Of a stretch of DNA of 64,000 nt, positions 35,340 through 42,860 are shown in pieces. The position numbers and the translations under genes are program-made. Source of the DNA: an uncultured Geobacteraceae bacterium (GTDB taxonomy: Bacteria > Desulfobacterota > Desulfuromonadia > Geobacterales > Pseudopelobacteraceae). The notes beneath the pieces were generated by a model. That model saw only the letters and a program-made list of their open reading frames with translations. It was not told the origin of the DNA and made no database searches. The stretch is from assembly GCA_903875605.1 (NCBI GenBank), contig CAIQWT010000097.1, forward strand, positions 1 through 64,000. Direction: 5' to 3'. Numbering within the stretch: position 1 is the stretch's first letter; every line of letters begins with the position of its first letter.

Positions 35340-35915
35340 TTAGTTTAAATCCGTATCGAGATAATATTTTGATCCCTGAATGGTTGCCTGTATGGCAAGA
35401 CCGTTTTTTGTTAACTGATAAAGGTCAATATCCGGAGCAACGGAGATTGCTCCTCCCGTGCCTCCCCCCTTGGCATCTGATTTAGCAACGGCATCGCCAG
35501 CCAACCCGGCAACCCAGCCGTTTTCTTTAAAGTGATCAAAAGCCTGTAATGACTTAAATACGAAGATGCCCCTGAAATCCTTTACCCCGAATCCAGGGCC
35601 AATGCCGCCGTAAACCATTTTCATATAATACTCTTTACCCGTCTTGTTATCATGGGCAACACCCCACCCGCCACCTAGCGAAAAGTAAATAATATTTGCA
35701 CCTACATTACTGAATACCGCGTAGCCTTCAGCATTTTGGATGCGCGACTTTGACTGCGGATGGACGGTATAAAGCTCCTGCAGCGTGTCATTTTTCATCT
35801 TCTGAATTACTTCACGCTTGTCTCGTGAATTGTCACTTACCGGGATTGTGATGCATCCGGCAAAAAGGCAGGCTGAGCATACCAGTAACAATAATTGTAA
35901 CATAGAGCGGTGCAT
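35340..35915 (-). CDS. SYLF (YSC84-like) domain lipoprotein
   Basis: A protein of 191 residues with a lipoprotein signal (lipobox LFAGC). The SYLF domain follows: SRIQNAEGYAVFSNVGANII, GGWGVAHDNKTGKEYYMKM, and KGGGTGGAISVAPDIDLYQL. SYLF domains bind phosphoinositides in eukaryotes; in bacteria they occur in exported proteins of unclear role. GGAG is well placed before the ATG. It follows the lipoprotein at 35937 by 21 bases on the same strand, so the two likely form an operon at the end of the envelope cluster. Confidence 0.9.
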   Translation of the reverse strand: MHRSMLQLLLLVCSACLFAGCITIPVSDNSRDKREVIQKMKNDTLQELYTVHPQSKSRIQNAEGYAVFSNVGANIIYFSLGGGWGVAHDNKTGKEYYMKMVYGGIGPGFGVKDFRGIFVFKSLQAFDHFKENGWVAGLAGDAVAKSDAKGGGTGGAISVAPDIDLYQLTKNGLAIQATIQGSKYYLDTDLN

Positions 35916-35936
35916 TTTGACTCCAGACAGCTGAAT

Positions 35937-36779
35937 CTATTCCTGCAAACTGTTTACCCGAACCCGGACCTTTGCACCCTCTTTGATTGAAGCACCACCA
36001 CGAGGATAAATTTTGCCGGTAACCGAACCATCACCAATAATAAGCTCACTGATTGATGCGAGCACTTTATTTTCTTCATCAATTACCACAAAACCATCGT
36101 TGCTTTCAAGTTGTCCTTTGGGCATTACCTTTATTTTGCTGGTGGCTATCATGATATTCACAGATTTGCCATTCAGATTGGTAATTTTACCCATTTCATA
36201 ACTCGGATTGAACGCATATCCCAACATATTTGCCGCTGCAGTGAAAGCAACATCAATAACTTCCGTGTAGAGCTCGGCTTTTTTCTCAGGCGGTACCGGG
36301 AATTTACTGGAAACTTTTTTATCGAGAGTCCTCTTGTCACCGAAAGACTTTACCAGTTCAATCTGGCCTTTTTGATTCATAAATTTGACATCCAGCTGAA
36401 CAGTCGCCTTAAAAGTGAGCTGTTTCCTATTGGGATCTGTAGGCATTGGAGTTTCGTAATTGCTTAACTCCTTGATTCTAGGTTCTATTATATAACTTTT
36501 TCCATCAATTGAGTTTTCAATGACTTTAGTAAAACGCTTTGTGTTGGCAATCTGCGTTTTTACCGACATCATGATTGTGTCTACTGATTCGGCAGACAAC
36601 TGTTTAGACCATTTGCCGGTAATATCCTTGGCCAGTTCGTCGGAGACAAGGTTGACCGGCTCCAGCGCAAGTGTTGTAACCTGTTGTGCCTCAGTGATGT
36701 ACACCGGAGCAGGAGCAGTTGCACAACCGAATGCTGTTAATGTGGCACCAGCCATAAGTAATAACTTTAGTTTTTTCAT
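35937..36779 (-). CDS. lipoprotein of unknown function (280 aa)
   Basis: The N terminus is a clear lipoprotein signal (LTAFGC, Cys19). The mature part has alternating beta-type segments (FKATVQLDVKFMNQKGQIEL) and a C-terminal ~100-residue part with NGKSVNIMIATSKIKVMPKG, VIDEENKVLASISELIIGDG and GKIYPRGGASIKEGAKVRVR. The latter could be a small beta-barrel such as a FlgT/LPP20-associated or OB-like module. I do not recognise the family. It heads a two-gene unit with the SYLF gene and sits next to the paralogue cluster. Confidence 0.75.
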   Translation of the reverse strand: MKKLKLLLMAGATLTAFGCATAPAPVYITEAQQVTTLALEPVNLVSDELAKDITGKWSKQLSAESVDTIMMSVKTQIANTKRFTKVIENSIDGKSYIIEPRIKELSNYETPMPTDPNRKQLTFKATVQLDVKFMNQKGQIELVKSFGDKRTLDKKVSSKFPVPPEKKAELYTEVIDVAFTAAANMLGYAFNPSYEMGKITNLNGKSVNIMIATSKIKVMPKGQLESNDGFVVIDEENKVLASISELIIGDGSVTGKIYPRGGASIKEGAKVRVRVNSLQE

Positions 36780-36970
36780 TGTATGCGGTCTCCCTTGGGT
36801 TTTATCGTGTATATGATAGATATTTACGGCTTTATATCAAAGATACAATCAGGGCGGTGAGTATTAAGGCAACGAAGATATTACATACGGTATACTGAGG
36901 AACCGAAGATGAGTTAAAGAAGAGCATGCTTTGACCTGGGACGAGAAAAACCGACCAAGAAACTGTAATT

Positions 36971-37008
36971 ACTCAATAGAGAGAGGCACAATGCCCCCCT
37001 CTATTGAG
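36971..37008 (-). terminator. hairpin terminator after the 440-aa lipoprotein gene
   Basis: ACTCAATAGAG (36971-36981) pairs perfectly with CTCTATTGAGT (36999-37009 region), with further G-C pairs inside. It begins about 18 bases after the stop at 37027 and separates the 37-42.6 kb unit from the 35.3-36.8 kb unit. Confidence 0.65.
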
Positions 37009-37026
37009 TGCAGTCAGGGGTGGAGG

Positions 37027-38277
37027 TTACTTGTTCCAGGCAGCCTGTAAAACCTGATCAAGTTCAGATTGTACCGGGTACATTGCAGCAAGAACATTCA
37101 TTGTAGCTGCTTCGTTATCACTGAACTCTACTTCTTTGCCAGCGGCAGCGAGCAGCAGCTTCGGTTCGATATCTGCCAATGCGACCACGGCATTTTCAAT
37201 ACGGAGAAGAGCCTGCTTTGTAGGCTCATCATCCTTGATTTCATAACCGATTTCTTTGATATTTTTATACATGGAAGAGTAGACAGTGTACTGCATGCCA
37301 AGGTTGTTTTTGTACATACCAAAAGCACCGATAATGTTTTTTACGCGGGGGATGACCATGGCAATATTAACCGCACCTTTTGCACCCTTAAACTCGTTTT
37401 TGATGTTTGGGAGCGCGCGGACGCCATTAACAACGGCGCATACGATTTTCACCATGGAAGCTGTTGAAAAATCCGCACCGGAGACAGATGCGCGGTAAAC
37501 CTTATTGGCCAGCTTGCCATGCTGCTTTTGAAGTTCAGCTACCTCTTTTTTCTTTTCTTCCAGCTTGGCGTTAAGTAGTGCTTTCGCCTTGTCATCCTTG
37601 AATGCCATATCAGGACAGTTGGCTTTCTTTACTTTTTCATCCTTGATCTCTTCGGTTGCTTTGCGAATAAATGCGCTGCAGGTTTTGTAACCTTTTGCTT
37701 CAGCCTCAATTTCATTCTGTAATTCTAGAACCTCTTTGCTGTTGCCGGTTACAGCACCATATGCAGCAAGCGGGTTGCGGTAAATATTGTCATCAATTGT
37801 GCCGTCTTTTTTGCGTGCTCCTAACGTTGTAAAGTCAACCTTGCTTTTTTTGAAGAAGCTGATGTCAATTTTATTAATTTCACTGTCGAGCATTTTGTCC
37901 CGCTCTTTCAGGAATATGTACAGAGCGCTTGTAGGACGTGGCAAACCTGTTTCAGGGTCAATCTCCATAGGAATAGTTACGCCCTGAGTTGAACCAAGCA
38001 TTGACAGACCCATTTTGAACATTGCCGCACCGGAGGGTGCACCGTACATTTTAGCTGGCCATTGATCCTGCTCCGAGATTGGTGTCTCCAAAAGTACTCG
38101 GTTAGACAATTTTATCGCCATTGCGGCTGACTCAAAAGAGTCAAGTGCTGCCATAACTGTCGGATTCATAGACTCAGCGGCACATTCACCGCCGGAAGTC
38201 AGGGTTGCACACCCGGTCATCTGGAGTGATGCCAGAGCGAGCGCGGCGAAGAGAATCAAGGATTTAAACATTTTCAC
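37027..38277 (-). CDS. large lipoprotein of unknown function
   Basis: About 416 residues from a GTG start that follows GGAGG by 8 bases; an ATG lies two codons later. The signal is lipoprotein-type (LQMTGC). The mature protein is Lys/Glu-rich and mostly helical, with a likely coiled coil around KLEEKKKEVAELQKQHGKLA and a later hydrophobic helix. I do not recognise it. The gene follows the FlgT-like gene at 38330 by about 50 bases and is the last of that transcription unit. Confidence 0.75.
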   Translation of the reverse strand: MKMFKSLILFAALALASLQMTGCATLTSGGECAAESMNPTVMAALDSFESAAMAIKLSNRVLLETPISEQDQWPAKMYGAPSGAAMFKMGLSMLGSTQGVTIPMEIDPETGLPRPTSALYIFLKERDKMLDSEINKIDISFFKKSKVDFTTLGARKKDGTIDDNIYRNPLAAYGAVTGNSKEVLELQNEIEAEAKGYKTCSAFIRKATEEIKDEKVKKANCPDMAFKDDKAKALLNAKLEEKKKEVAELQKQHGKLANKVYRASVSGADFSTASMVKIVCAVVNGVRALPNIKNEFKGAKGAVNIAMVIPRVKNIIGAFGMYKNNLGMQYTVYSSMYKNIKEIGYEIKDDEPTKQALLRIENAVVALADIEPKLLLAAAGKEVEFSDNEAATMNVLAAMYPVQSELDQVLQAAWNK

Positions 38278-38329
38278 GGGTATTACCTCCGGTGTACTAG
38301 ATACCTTCACACTTGGTGTAAGGATTATG

Positions 38330-39460
38330 CTATTTTTTCTTGAAAACAACTTTATTACCAGCGATTTCAGGGTTAAAGCTCTTCATTTGTTCATCTTTTT
38401 CAAAGTTATCGAGCAACAGGTCTACCAGGTCACTGATCTTGCCGACATACATCAGGTCAATGACCATATCACCCTTGCCCCTACCCTTCTGGCTTACATC
38501 CTTGAGTCCCTTAATATCCTCTTTAAGCAGTTTTAAAATCTTTCGCTCCAGCTTGTAATCCCCGCCTGCTGCAAAAACGACTTCAAAACGCGAACCGCGT
38601 CTTTCCTGAGTAAGAGTCTTTGTGTTCAGTGCGCCAAGCACCTCTTTGGCAAATGCTTTACCGCCGTTGATGGCAGAAAGGCGCAAAGCCGCTTTCGCCT
38701 CGGCCTTTGATCCCCTGGCAGCACCGTCTATGTTACCTTCCCACATAATATCGCGACTGGCCAGACTGACAGCCTTGCCGGTCATCATGGCGCGGTAGAT
38801 GTAAGTGCCGCCATTCTGTGCGATATCCATATCGACCTTACCCAATACCAACCACTCGCCTTTGTCTGCCAGCTTGTCTGCCAGCTTGTTAATATGACTG
38901 ACGAGCTTGTTGTAATCAGCCTCTTCAGTTAAAGCGTCATTGATAGCCTGATCATCGGAATCGATGACGGTATACTCTGCAGCAGTCAGACTTCTGCGAA
39001 TTTCAGCCCGGACGTTATCGAGAATAACCGGCGCATCACCGCTATCCATCTTGCCTGGTATCAACATAACCACAATACGACGGTCCTCGTTTTTACCGGT
39101 AACGGCGCCCTGTCGTTTTAGATAAGCACGCACCTCTTCTTCATTGATGGTAACGCGAAACTTAACTTTAAGCTCTTTGCCAAACATACCGCTTGTACTG
39201 GATTCGAGCTGTTCCATGTCCTGAATGAACTTCTCGTCGCCGGTGAGGTTGAGTGTTGCCGCGCGATCTTTGTACACATCATTAAGGTAACTGCGCAGTG
39301 CCTGCTCACGGCCACGCTCTTTGGCCTTATTTAGTGCGCTGTATTCATCATCTCCAACTTTAACAGTGACAGTCTCTGTGTAAGTGCGCGTCTCGGCTAC
39401 TGCGATAAGGGGAACCAGCATCATACCCAATACCATCACAAGCATAATTATTCGTTTCAT
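38330..39460 (-). CDS. exported FlgT/LPP20-like protein
   Basis: A protein of 376 residues with a signal peptide (VLGMMLVPLIAVAE, cleavage after AVA). The N-terminal part (YSALNKAKERGREQALRSYL) resembles the N-terminal domain of FlgT and LPP20-type proteins, where a preprotein-like helix carries many Ala and Arg. A central TolB-N/CsgG-like region follows (RIVVMLIPGK, AEIRRSLTAAEYTVIDSDD). The C-terminal ~70 residues (KGDMVIDLMYVGKISDLVDL ending in Lys-rich NKVVFKKK) recall the end domain of the three upstream paralogues but are more divergent. AGGAGG precedes the ATG. Exact function unknown. Confidence 0.75.
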   Translation of the reverse strand: MKRIIMLVMVLGMMLVPLIAVAETRTYTETVTVKVGDDEYSALNKAKERGREQALRSYLNDVYKDRAATLNLTGDEKFIQDMEQLESSTSGMFGKELKVKFRVTINEEEVRAYLKRQGAVTGKNEDRRIVVMLIPGKMDSGDAPVILDNVRAEIRRSLTAAEYTVIDSDDQAINDALTEEADYNKLVSHINKLADKLADKGEWLVLGKVDMDIAQNGGTYIYRAMMTGKAVSLASRDIMWEGNIDGAARGSKAEAKAALRLSAINGGKAFAKEVLGALNTKTLTQERRGSRFEVVFAAGGDYKLERKILKLLKEDIKGLKDVSQKGRGKGDMVIDLMYVGKISDLVDLLLDNFEKDEQMKSFNPEIAGNKVVFKKK

Positions 39461-39499
39461 ACAGGTAATCCTCCTAATAATAGTTCTTTGCGGAATAGG

Positions 39500-40615
39500 T
39501 TATTGTTTTTTCCAGGTGCTGCGGTTACCTTCAGATCTGATCAGCTTGAGCTTCCAGCCGAGATCTTTAGCTGCTTTCTGGATAAAAGCCTTAACCTCGT
39601 CATTGCTGCCGCTGTATTTCACTTCGTATGTAGTTTTTCCGCCACCTGACTCGCGCTCACGAATGCTCTCCATTTCAGGAATTGCCTTCATCTTGTCTCT
39701 GAAGCTGCTGATTTCTTCTGCATCATCAACACCATCCATGACGAAAATGTATGTACTGCCCATAGTTTTTTCACGTTTCCAGCTTTTCTTGATCGCCTCT
39801 ATTGTAACGGCAGCCACCTTTTTGCCAGCTTCATCAGCTGAACGGAGCAACGCTTCCTGAATAGTTGAAGCCCCTGAAGAAGCATCAACTTTTTTACTTG
39901 CAATGATACGTGATGTTGTCGCGTTGATCAGCTCAGTGCGGATAAAAAGCTTGGCAGCACTGCGTGAATCACCTTCAACGCCGATCCCTACGGCTTGATA
40001 ATAAAGGATCAGCTCTGCATGGTTTTTCAAACCAAAGGCTGCGGCTTTATTGATATCGATATCCATTTCGTGTGATTCTGCAACTTGCAGAGAGAATTTC
40101 TCGGCAGTGCCTTTGTCAATTACATCAAAGCCCTTATCAGCAAGTACATCGACGATAGAACCGTATGAGTTGTCAAAAAATGCTTCCAAATCCTTGGAAG
40201 TGGCACCCAGCTTACCGCCTTGAGGAAGTTTAGGGTTATAAAGCACCATTATACGCGGGTTACCCATTGATTCCTGAAGAATGCCAAGGCCACTGATATC
40301 AGCCTCTAGAGCCTTTGTGTCAACCTCAACGACTGCCGCTACTTCGTATCCAGAACCGGTAAATTCGGCTTCACCGGATTCTTTAGCGGACGTTACGTAA
40401 TTTTTGCCTTTGATGGTTGCCTGAATTTTGCTTTTGTATTTCTTGTAAGATGCGTCATCAACAATCTGCAAAATTGCCTGCTCAACAGCTTTGACTTTTG
40501 CATTAGCGAGTGCAGCTTCCTCGCTTTTTCCTTTTCCGGTTACATTGATCGGAGCGGCCCATAAAGTAGAGGCAAGCAGCAGTGACACGACAGAGGCAAA
40601 GATAAAATGGCGCAT
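39500..40615 (-). CDS. exported FlgT-like paralogue C of a tandem family
   Basis: A protein of 371 residues with a signal peptide ending LWA. The N-terminal domain (ATG-like GKGKSEEAALANAKVKAVEQ) resembles FlgT-N/LPP20. The middle domain starts at MGNPRIMVLYNPKL and includes DVLADKGFDVIDKGTAEKFS and KAAAFGLKNHAELILYYQA. The C-terminal domain has ESGGGKTTYEVKYSG and ends in LGWKLKLIRSEGNRSTWKKQ. These three parts recur in the same order at 40673 and, without the first, at 41789. Likely periplasmic or outer-membrane-associated. Unknown role; a TolB-N/CsgG-like fold is plausible. Confidence 0.8.
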   Translation of the reverse strand: MRHFIFASVVSLLLASTLWAAPINVTGKGKSEEAALANAKVKAVEQAILQIVDDASYKKYKSKIQATIKGKNYVTSAKESGEAEFTGSGYEVAAVVEVDTKALEADISGLGILQESMGNPRIMVLYNPKLPQGGKLGATSKDLEAFFDNSYGSIVDVLADKGFDVIDKGTAEKFSLQVAESHEMDIDINKAAAFGLKNHAELILYYQAVGIGVEGDSRSAAKLFIRTELINATTSRIIASKKVDASSGASTIQEALLRSADEAGKKVAAVTIEAIKKSWKREKTMGSTYIFVMDGVDDAEEISSFRDKMKAIPEMESIRERESGGGKTTYEVKYSGSNDEVKAFIQKAAKDLGWKLKLIRSEGNRSTWKKQ

Positions 40616-40672
40616 GGTGTTATGTCCTTTCCAATAGGTTTAATTTAACAATGATATTTATCAACCTGGGCA

Positions 40673-41776
40673 CTACTGTTTTTTCCAGGTACTGCGAGCC
40701 CCTTCTGCACGAACCTTTTTAAGGGTCCAGCCAAGCTCCTTTGCTGCGCGTATAACATCTCTGTCGAGCTGATCACGCTTACCTTTGTAGGTAGCTTCAA
40801 AAGTTGTTTTTCCACCACCGGATTCAATTTCCTTGGCATCGTTAACGAGAGGGAATTTCTCAAACATGCTGGTGAACTTGCCGATTTCTTCCGCATCTTC
40901 AACACCATCGATCACAACCGTGTACAAGGAACCGTTCTGCTGCATATCCATCCAGTTTTTCTGGATAACTTCGATCATTGGATTGACGATCTTCTTGCCG
41001 CCGTCACGTGCCGCTTTTTCCATAGCGTTTTCCATCGACTGGCCGCTGCTGACCTGTTCTACCATTTTGCTGGTAACAACCTGTGAACGGGTATTGTCAA
41101 TTAACTGGGTCTTAATACGCAACTTGACACCAATATTAACAGCGCCCTCCTTGACTTCACCGCTGACGCTGTACAGCAGAGTATACTCAGCGTTGTACTT
41201 AAGTCCGAAAGCTGCTGCCTGATTCAGGTCAACATCAATTTCGTGGGTAGCGGCAACCTGTTGAGCAAATTTTTCCGAGGATGCTTTGTCAACCACTCGG
41301 AATTGTTTGTCAGTCAGAGTTTCCACAATTCCGTTGTAGATTTCCTCGACAAAATCTTTGTTTTTGAAAGCCTGTGCGCCCTCGCCTTTTTTGCTGAAAG
41401 CCACGAGAATACGAGGATTACCAACACTCTTTCGCAGAATGGTTAACGCATTGACGTCGTCCTTGATAAGCTTGTCATCAACCTTGGCTGAGATGGTCAC
41501 AGTGTAGCCATCATCCGTCTTGGCTTCCTTGATGACTGTATAGCTGGTGACATATCCCTTGCTGTGCGAAAGGATTTTGTCGTCAACCAGTTGCGCATCA
41601 ATTACGGTAGTACTGGATTTTATGTACGTGCCAACTCCCTGCTCAACCGCCCGCCGCATGGCACTTATCAGAGCCTGGTCTTTATTAGGGCCTTCTCCTG
41701 TGGCCTCAACGTTGGCAAAAGCGACTGATGTCCCCATTACCAGAAATGCAAACATAATCAGAAATACATTCTTCAT
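40673..41776 (-). CDS. exported FlgT-like paralogue B of a tandem family
   Basis: About 367 residues. The ATG 41776 follows AGGAGG by 6 bases; a TTG two codons upstream is less likely. A signal peptide ends SVAFA. The N-terminal domain reads ATGEGPNKDQALISAMRRAV with SKGYVTSYTVIKE. The middle domain has VGNPRILVAFSKKG and VVDKASSEKFAQQVAATHEI. The C-terminal domain has ESGGGKTTFEATYKG and ends in VRAEGARSTWKKQ. It is the closest match to both neighbours and so may be nearest to the ancestral copy. Unknown function, probably part of a multiprotein envelope assembly. Confidence 0.8.
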   Translation of the reverse strand: MKNVFLIMFAFLVMGTSVAFANVEATGEGPNKDQALISAMRRAVEQGVGTYIKSSTTVIDAQLVDDKILSHSKGYVTSYTVIKEAKTDDGYTVTISAKVDDKLIKDDVNALTILRKSVGNPRILVAFSKKGEGAQAFKNKDFVEEIYNGIVETLTDKQFRVVDKASSEKFAQQVAATHEIDVDLNQAAAFGLKYNAEYTLLYSVSGEVKEGAVNIGVKLRIKTQLIDNTRSQVVTSKMVEQVSSGQSMENAMEKAARDGGKKIVNPMIEVIQKNWMDMQQNGSLYTVVIDGVEDAEEIGKFTSMFEKFPLVNDAKEIESGGGKTTFEATYKGKRDQLDRDVIRAAKELGWTLKKVRAEGARSTWKKQ

Positions 41777-41788
41777 GAACAACCTCCT

Positions 41789-42622
41789 CTATTTAATTTT
41801 CCAGGAACTACGGTTCCCTTCTGACCTGACTTTATTAAGCTTCCATCCCAACTCACCTGCTGCCTTGAGAATATCACGGTCCAATTGATCACGCTTGCCT
41901 TTGTAGCAGATTTCAAATGTGGCCTTGCCACCACCTGACTCTGTTTCTTTGGCTGTGGATACTGATGTGTTCCCTTCCAACTGAGCCAGCAGCGGCATTA
42001 AACTCTCTTCGCTGTTTGGGCTCTCAACCACGATTGTGTAGATATGACCCGCGTTGACAGCCTCCCGATAGAACTTTTCCATGGCGCCAATTAGTGCTGC
42101 CGCAAGCTTTTTACCGGCAGCGCGGGAAGCTTTATCAATTGCATCCTCTAGAGTTATACCCGATGACGATGCATCTGCAACTTTAGACGTTATTATTTGG
42201 GCTGAGGTATTGTCAACGACTTTGGCGGAAACCCGTATCAAGGCGCCTTTGCTCTCTTCAGCGTCTCTTTTGGTGGTTGTGGTCTTAAAAAAAATGGTGT
42301 ACTCGGCAAAAAATTTAAGTCCGAAGGAGGCTGCTTTATTGAGGACCGGATCGATTTCGTGGGTGGCGGCAATCTGAAGCGAACACTGCTCGGCTGACGC
42401 CTTGTCAACTACCCGGTATCCCTTGTCGGTCAGATATTCGACAAGCCCTTCGTAAACATTCACACGGGACTCTTGCTCAGCATCATTTGCTTTACTTGAA
42501 GGAGCAACGTGGATGATAAGCAGCCGCTCATTGCTGGGCTTTTTAGTGTCGGACGCAGAAGAGGGGGTGCCATAACAGGCCATGGCAAAGACTGCGAAAA
42601 CCAGGGTGATCCAATGCTTCAT
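41789..42622 (-). CDS. exported paralogue A, lacking the N-terminal FlgT-like domain
   Basis: About 277 residues from ATG 42622, which has AGGAGGG 7 bases upstream; the longer frame from 42733 runs through a leader hairpin. After the signal peptide it goes almost directly into the middle domain (NERLLIIHVAP, EYLTDKGYRVVDKASAEQCS, THEIDPVLNKAASFGLK). It then has the C-terminal domain with ESGGGKATFEICYKGKRDQL and VRSEGNRSSWKIK. The N-terminal FlgT-like domain of its two neighbours is missing. It is the first gene of the unit and 12 bases before paralogue B. Confidence 0.8.
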   Translation of the reverse strand: MKHWITLVFAVFAMACYGTPSSASDTKKPSNERLLIIHVAPSSKANDAEQESRVNVYEGLVEYLTDKGYRVVDKASAEQCSLQIAATHEIDPVLNKAASFGLKFFAEYTIFFKTTTTKRDAEESKGALIRVSAKVVDNTSAQIITSKVADASSSGITLEDAIDKASRAAGKKLAAALIGAMEKFYREAVNAGHIYTIVVESPNSEESLMPLLAQLEGNTSVSTAKETESGGGKATFEICYKGKRDQLDRDILKAAGELGWKLNKVRSEGNRSSWKIK

Positions 42623-42667
42623 GTAATCCCTCCTGGGCAGGTAAACTTTACTATGTAGTAGAACAAA

Positions 42668-42706
42668 AAAGAGCATACCCTTTTTATTGCCTGGGGAATG
42701 CTCTTT
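42668..42706 (-). terminator. terminator-like hairpin in the leader of the envelope cluster
   Basis: On the minus strand AAAGAGCATTCCC pairs with GGGTATGCTCTTT and is followed by TTTTTTG. This is a textbook intrinsic terminator, but it lies about 46 bases upstream of the first gene and downstream of its candidate promoter. It may attenuate the operon, or stop read-through from the transporter gene at 43493. Confidence 0.6.
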
Positions 42707-42860
42707 GATAGCGCTGTTATAGATTTCAGTCACGGACTTTCATTGAAATACCGCCATACATTTATACAAAGTTCTTTTTAACCAAATCTCTTTTTGTTTG
42801 TTGCAAACAAGATATTTACTACCCTGTTTATTAAAATAATTTTCGAATAAAAGATAAATT

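Follow-up and report, generated by a model that had tools for sequence, protein, structure and literature searches.

A conserved gene set encoding FlgT-like exported paralogues and two predicted outer-membrane lipoproteins in a Geobacteraceae bacterium and its relatives

RESULTS

Seven genes for exported proteins

The window, i.e., the whole 64,000-nucleotide stretch of DNA analyzed here (contig C97 of an uncultured Geobacteraceae bacterium), carries seven minus-strand genes between positions 35340 and 42733, all for exported proteins, and all seven ORFs were found where the initial annotation had placed them. The genes, and an inverted repeat lying among them, are as follows.

41789–42622, minus strand: p314, FlgT-like paralogue of 277 aa from the probable ATG, with middle and C-terminal domains only
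40673–41776, minus strand: p369, 367 aa from the ATG; SHS2/FlgT_N, TolB-N/LpoB-like and C-terminal alpha/beta domains
39500–40615, minus strand: p371, p369 paralogue with the same three-part layout
38330–39460, minus strand: p376, distant full-length p369 homologue
37027–38277, minus strand: lipo440, 416 aa from the GTG; predicted outer-membrane lipoprotein
36971–37009, minus strand: inverted repeat downstream of lipo440, between lipo440 and lipo280; ACTCAATAGAG...CTCTATTGAGT
35937–36779, minus strand: lipo280, predicted outer-membrane lipoprotein
35340–35915, minus strand: SYLF-domain lipoprotein, accessory

Start codons were revised for three ORFs. That of p314 is most likely the ATG at 42622, which has GGAGGG upstream and gives a protein beginning MKHWITLVF.... 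The most likely start of p369 is an ATG at 41776, and that of lipo440, listed as an ORF of 440 aa, is a GTG at 38277, leaving 416 aa. The inverted repeat has arms of about 11 bases without a T-run and was not called by the terminator scan; it may act as an attenuator or mark the end of a transcript. Counts in the promoter and terminator scan were at chance level, and an Rfam search of the 33- to 45-kb region returned no match.

Four FlgT-like paralogues

The initial annotation had described a common middle domain and C-terminal motif in the proteins encoded at 39500, 40673 and 41789, and BLASTP bears this out with E values from 3e-44 (p371 versus p314) to 6e-85 (p369 versus p371, 39% identity); p369 and p314 match at E 1e-66 to 4e-73, with 44% identity over p369 residues 118 to 367. 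As judged from these alignments, p369, p371 and p314 are true paralogues. All three carry the motif, ESGGGK(T/A)T(Y/F)E ... EG(N/A)RS(T/S)WK, in their C-terminal domains. p314 lacks the N-terminal SHS2/FlgT_N domain, and its orthologues keep the short form too; p369 is retained more widely than either of the other two.

The fourth protein, p376, had been credited with a "related" layout, which is correct and understated: it is only weakly similar to the paralogues by BLASTP (E 0.06), but profile-profile comparison with p369 (hhalign) aligns about 330 columns at a probability of 97.6% and E 3.5e-12, i.e., over the full length, and an HMM built from the paralogues also recovers it (E about 9e-8). 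p376 is strongly conserved, with 79% mean column identity across 15 orthologues. Low complexity is ruled out as the source of the similarity among the paralogues by the E values and by the fold described below. The structural relation that had been proposed for testing is indeed present. By inspection, p369, p371 and p376 carry ordinary cleavable signal peptides, and none of the three contains a Cys lipobox.

Predicted fold of p369

An AlphaFold2 model of p369, built with 25 homologues (pLDDT 79), shows a strand-helix-(insert)-strands region followed by an alpha/beta TolB-N-like domain and then a strand-helix-strand-strand-helix-strand domain. In a Foldseek search of the PDB with this model, the best match was 8z5n (LPHT ring; E 2e-10), then 3w1e (FlgT; E 1.7e-9), followed by GNA1162, CT253, CsgG, HpaA, PelC and LptE. 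The alignment with FlgT covers 384 columns at E 1.7e-9 with a TM-score of only 0.28 and an rmsd of 14.6; a difference in domain arrangement accounts for the low TM-scores. The relatedness to FlgT that the model supports is hence one of individual domains and of domain order, which is no proof of a FlgT orthologue.

Sequence profiles agree with the FlgT-like domain order that had been recognized at the outset. Pfam FlgT_N (PF16548) matches 16 of the 25 p369 homologues (best E 1.8e-9); p369 itself scores E 4e-4 and 21.3 bits, below the cutoff of 28.8, and one homologue (from locus L048) reaches 33.1 bits, above it. LpoB (PF13036) matches 13 of the 25 at E 0.1 (best 7e-6), p369 itself giving E 1e-3 and 19.2 bits against a cutoff of 22.3, and LpoB was also matched in a PDB profile search with p369 (E 0.007). 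At E 0.1, FlgT_C (PF16538) matched none of the 25, and no window protein has a Pfam match to the CsgG domain (PF03783). The p369 profile additionally matches the FlgP-type chain of 9hmf (E 2.4e-7) and, over residues 33 to 335, a LipL46 profile (E 8e-7, but 28 bits against a cutoff of 400).

Known relatives of the p369 domains, namely, FlgT, FlgP, CsgG and PelC, form rings. Ring formation has been linked to extra residues inserted after the SHS2 helix and before the second strand (PMC12222027). The p369 model has about 20 residues at that site (helix 34 to 57, next strand from 78), although these are helical, unlike the beta-hairpin of FlgP.

The lipoproteins of the locus

By inspection, lipo440 has the lipobox LQMTGC and lipo280 the weak lipobox TAFGC, the Cys of which is invariant across 12 homologues; both look like outer-membrane lipoproteins. 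The lipo440 model is mostly helical (pLDDT 74), with two very long helices (residues 229 to 295 and 298 to 343), and a fold search of the PDB gave no meaningful match (best E 0.32). lipo280 shows a subthreshold profile match (41.6%) to a CsgG-like cluster. Neither protein has recognizable relatives, and the roles proposed for them below are guesses.

The SYLF protein (lipobox LFAGC, by inspection) is a third lipoprotein of the locus. It matches NF049970 (SYLF/BPSL1445 lipoprotein) over residues 10 to 183 at E 2.1e-16 and, with 60 bits against a cutoff of 200, would belong to the same domain class, a match that does not establish equivalog status. SYLF is a lipid-binding domain class (PMC10787603). 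Apart from this genome, only the nearest relative has the gene next to the set; its inclusion in the set by the initial annotation is therefore not upheld, and we treat it as noncore.

Conservation and co-occurrence of the set

The order p314-p369-p371-p376-lipo440-lipo280 recurs in about 12 relatives with differing flanking genes. These relatives represent several genera of one Geobacter-like family, and the named ones comprise Geobacter sp. as well as MAGs assigned to Geobacteraceae or Desulfuromonadaceae. Some lack p314 and p371, leaving a core of p369-p376-lipo440-lipo280, and at some loci only p369-p376 is kept, beside other partners. Recurrence outside a single strain, on which the initial annotation had made its proposal depend, was thus observed: of 98 genomes sampled, 11 besides our own carry the set. 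In this sample of near relatives lipo440 occurs in 12 genomes, our own included; its presence is patchy and the system therefore dispensable.

Across 297 genomes drawn evenly from the phylum, the p376, lipo440 and lipo280 profiles hit the same five (own genome included), with one copy of each, all in the window's family. dN/dS values against the nearest relative (locus L032) were 0.02 to 0.08 for the six core genes; the values are rough, dS being near saturation, and indicate that the core genes are under purifying selection. No relatives of p376 or lipo440 were found in the plasmid collection searched.

Wider p369 homologues and their neighborhoods

Homologues of p369 occur in 126 of the 297 phylum genomes, far more widely than p376, lipo440 and lipo280, and have two recurrent kinds of partners. 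One comprises YcfL, a 517-aa p369 relative (hhalign 95.5%) and proteins of 670 and 220 aa (loci L044, L039 and L114). Kinship of lipo440 and lipo280 with the 220- and 670-aa proteins was considered and rejected, profile comparison being negative. In L114 (1932–7994), which belongs to another family of the phylum, the p369 of this variant scores E 7e-142 against the profile, which suggests either horizontal transfer or losses elsewhere. Near another YcfL-517-670-220 cluster (L104, 14629–16889), a possible E1/E2-like fusion was noted by eye beside a JAB-like peptidase.

The other kind of neighborhood comprises an SLH/TPR lipoprotein, an LPP20-like protein that is itself a p369 profile relative (96.7%), CsgG-like and GNA1162-like lipoproteins, FecR, transglutaminase-like proteins and a presumed outer-membrane barrel. 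In the nearest relative (L032, 2198–7556), genes for FecR-TPR, SLH/TPR lipoprotein, LPP20-like 306-aa and transglutaminase-like proteins lie directly upstream of p314; in our own genome the same run sits elsewhere, on contig C18 (L128, 7245–12715). Contig C83 of our genome (L106, 2418–3923) also encodes a protein of 502 aa whose N-terminal domain is p369-like (hhalign 92.9%); close to it, by eye, is an apparent replicative-helicase fragment.

Of 50 genomes outside the window's family, 9, from six families, have MlaE on the contig of the p369 homologue and no more than about 15 kb away from it. About one genome would be expected, a rough estimate based on about two MlaE genes per 2.8 Mb that takes no account of related genomes not being independent. 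In L124 (8444–17999; also L115 and L116), a p369 homologue, GNA1162-like, CsgG-like, SLH lipoprotein, LPP20-like and presumed barrel genes, MlaE, an ATPase and MlaD form one run, an envelope cluster that has no name and includes MCE lipid transport.

These neighborhoods bear on a role as an accessory for lipid or polymer transport across the envelope, either CsgG/PelC-like or Mla-associated. Such a role would accord with CsgG and PelC being among the p369 fold matches, with the proximity of p369 homologues to MlaE/F/D and CsgG/GNA1162 lipoproteins, and with the adjacent lipoprotein of the lipid-binding SYLF class. However, the window's set has no transporter, channel or substrate gene; no MlaE was found on the window contig, the window proteins have no CsgG Pfam match, and SYLF is not conserved with the set. 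We regard this role as quite unlikely.

Flagellar, curli and LpoB genes elsewhere in the genome

As the initial annotation had noted, no flagellar or curli genes lie near the set: FlgH is on contig C26, and the sole CsgG match listed for the genome is on C72. An accessory flagellar structure, i.e., an extra H-ring or a basal-disk-like ring in the manner of FlgT, FlgP or FapH, would fit FlgT as the closest fold, the sequence-profile match to the FlgP chain, and the presence of FlgH in every lipo440-bearing genome bar one, which is incomplete. There is also the precedent of Helicobacter FapH, a lipoprotein encoded beside flgP in its operon, which forms a motor ring at the outer membrane and can protect that membrane (PMC11756786). 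Yet FlgH lies on a different contig from the set and tracks it poorly (81 of 98 relatives, compared to only 12 for lipo440), and elsewhere p369 homologues adjoin other envelope genes. We consider a flagellar role quite unlikely.

The genome also has its own YcfL-LpoB-like operon, on contig C81 (L096, 7181–10294), separate from the set and recurring in many relatives. This operon-like group comprises a long lipoprotein, YcfL (DUF1425, about L096 8796–9080), an LpoB-like lipoprotein and a further lipoprotein. In relatives, the long lipoprotein beside YcfL-LpoB is of a family that we take to be COG3014; hhalign detected no profile relation between lipo440 and this COG3014-like protein (probability 4.7%). 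The COG3014-YcfL-LpoB operon was accordingly rejected as the parent of the set, neither lipo440 nor lipo280 having a profile relation to it and the genome having a separate operon of that kind.

Might the proteins nonetheless regulate peptidoglycan synthesis, their LpoB-like middle domains activating class A PBPs and the lipoproteins serving as outer-membrane anchors? The LpoB profile matches given above would speak for this, as would YcfL in the variant p369 locus, YcfL being the neighbor of lpoB in E. coli. Against it, the genome already has the C81 operon, the TolB-N-like fold is common to many different functions, and p369, p371 and p376 are without lipid anchors, a defining feature of LpoB. 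We regard such regulation as quite unlikely too. By its context the set is not flagellar, and it is neither a curli system nor the LpoB of this genome.

DISCUSSION

The explanation that we favor, with about an even chance of being right, is an envelope assembly that is neither flagellar nor curli: a hetero-oligomeric scaffold in the periplasm, attached to the outer membrane and probably serving envelope maintenance. p369, p371, p376 and the short p314 would be subunits of a single hetero-oligomer, which might take the form of a ring or disk as in FlgT and FlgP, and the helical lipo440 together with lipo280 would fasten it to the periplasmic side of the outer membrane. Most likely it would serve to maintain or organize the outer membrane and the connection of that membrane with the cell wall or with lipid traffic. 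An assembly is suggested because the p369 fold matches FlgT and the LPHT ring and then GNA1162, CsgG and PelC; a single unit, because p376, lipo440 and lipo280 co-occur in the same 5 of 297 genomes, gene order is conserved and dN/dS is low; and an envelope role, because wider p369 homologues are found with CsgG, GNA1162, LPP20, SLH and barrel-like proteins and, in some genomes, within about 15 kb of MlaE. The MlaE link, however, concerns distant p369 homologues and not the window's set. A bolder version, which we think unlikely, is that the set builds an undescribed non-flagellar, hetero-oligomeric ring or disk under the outer membrane, FlgT/FlgP-like and with a role in envelope maintenance, and that it represents one of several interchangeable forms of a p369-based machine widespread in the Desulfobacterota, some of these forms being coupled to Mla lipid transport.

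Known systems resemble the set only in part. Like p369, FlgT of the Vibrio polar flagellum H-ring (3w1e/8z5n) is exported and has a TolB-N-like middle domain preceded by a domain of SHS2 type at the N terminus, but the p369 family has no FlgT_C match, arranges its domains otherwise, has several paralogues per operon and shows no link to flagellar genes. With LpoB and the YcfL-LpoB operon it shares the TolB-N-like middle domain (a weak LpoB match) and, in the variant cluster, YcfL; unlike LpoB, the FlgT-like proteins of the window are not lipid anchored and have extra N- and C-terminal domains, and the LpoB-like gene of the genome is a separate one. The outer-membrane lipoproteins CsgG, PelC and GNA1162 have a related TolB-N-like fold, the first two being ring forming, but the window proteins have no CsgG Pfam match and no curli or Pel genes alongside. 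LipL46 of Leptospira, matched by profile along most of the p369 chain, is a lipoprotein, unlike p369. Among the FlgP/LPP20/FapH proteins of Campylobacterota, FlgP and LPP20 have the SHS2 domain and FapH is an operon lipoprotein partner; these proteins are, however, much shorter, and FlgP and FapH are flagellar motor parts. The group provides a precedent for rings that protect the outer membrane (PMC12222027, PMC11756786).

The set is real, conserved and built from known kinds of domains, in a combination for which we found no description: our literature search retrieved no paper on this gene set. Flagellar motors are the main setting in which FlgT-like SHS2/TolB-N proteins are known. Here, four such proteins are encoded with two private lipoproteins in a conserved, strictly co-occurring operon in a non-flagellar context, which suggests a wider envelope role for ring-type modules. 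The p369 homologues offer a way into a large group of envelope gene clusters that has no name and spans the phylum, Geobacter relatives included; in these relatives the outer membrane is important for extracellular electron transfer and for bioremediation.
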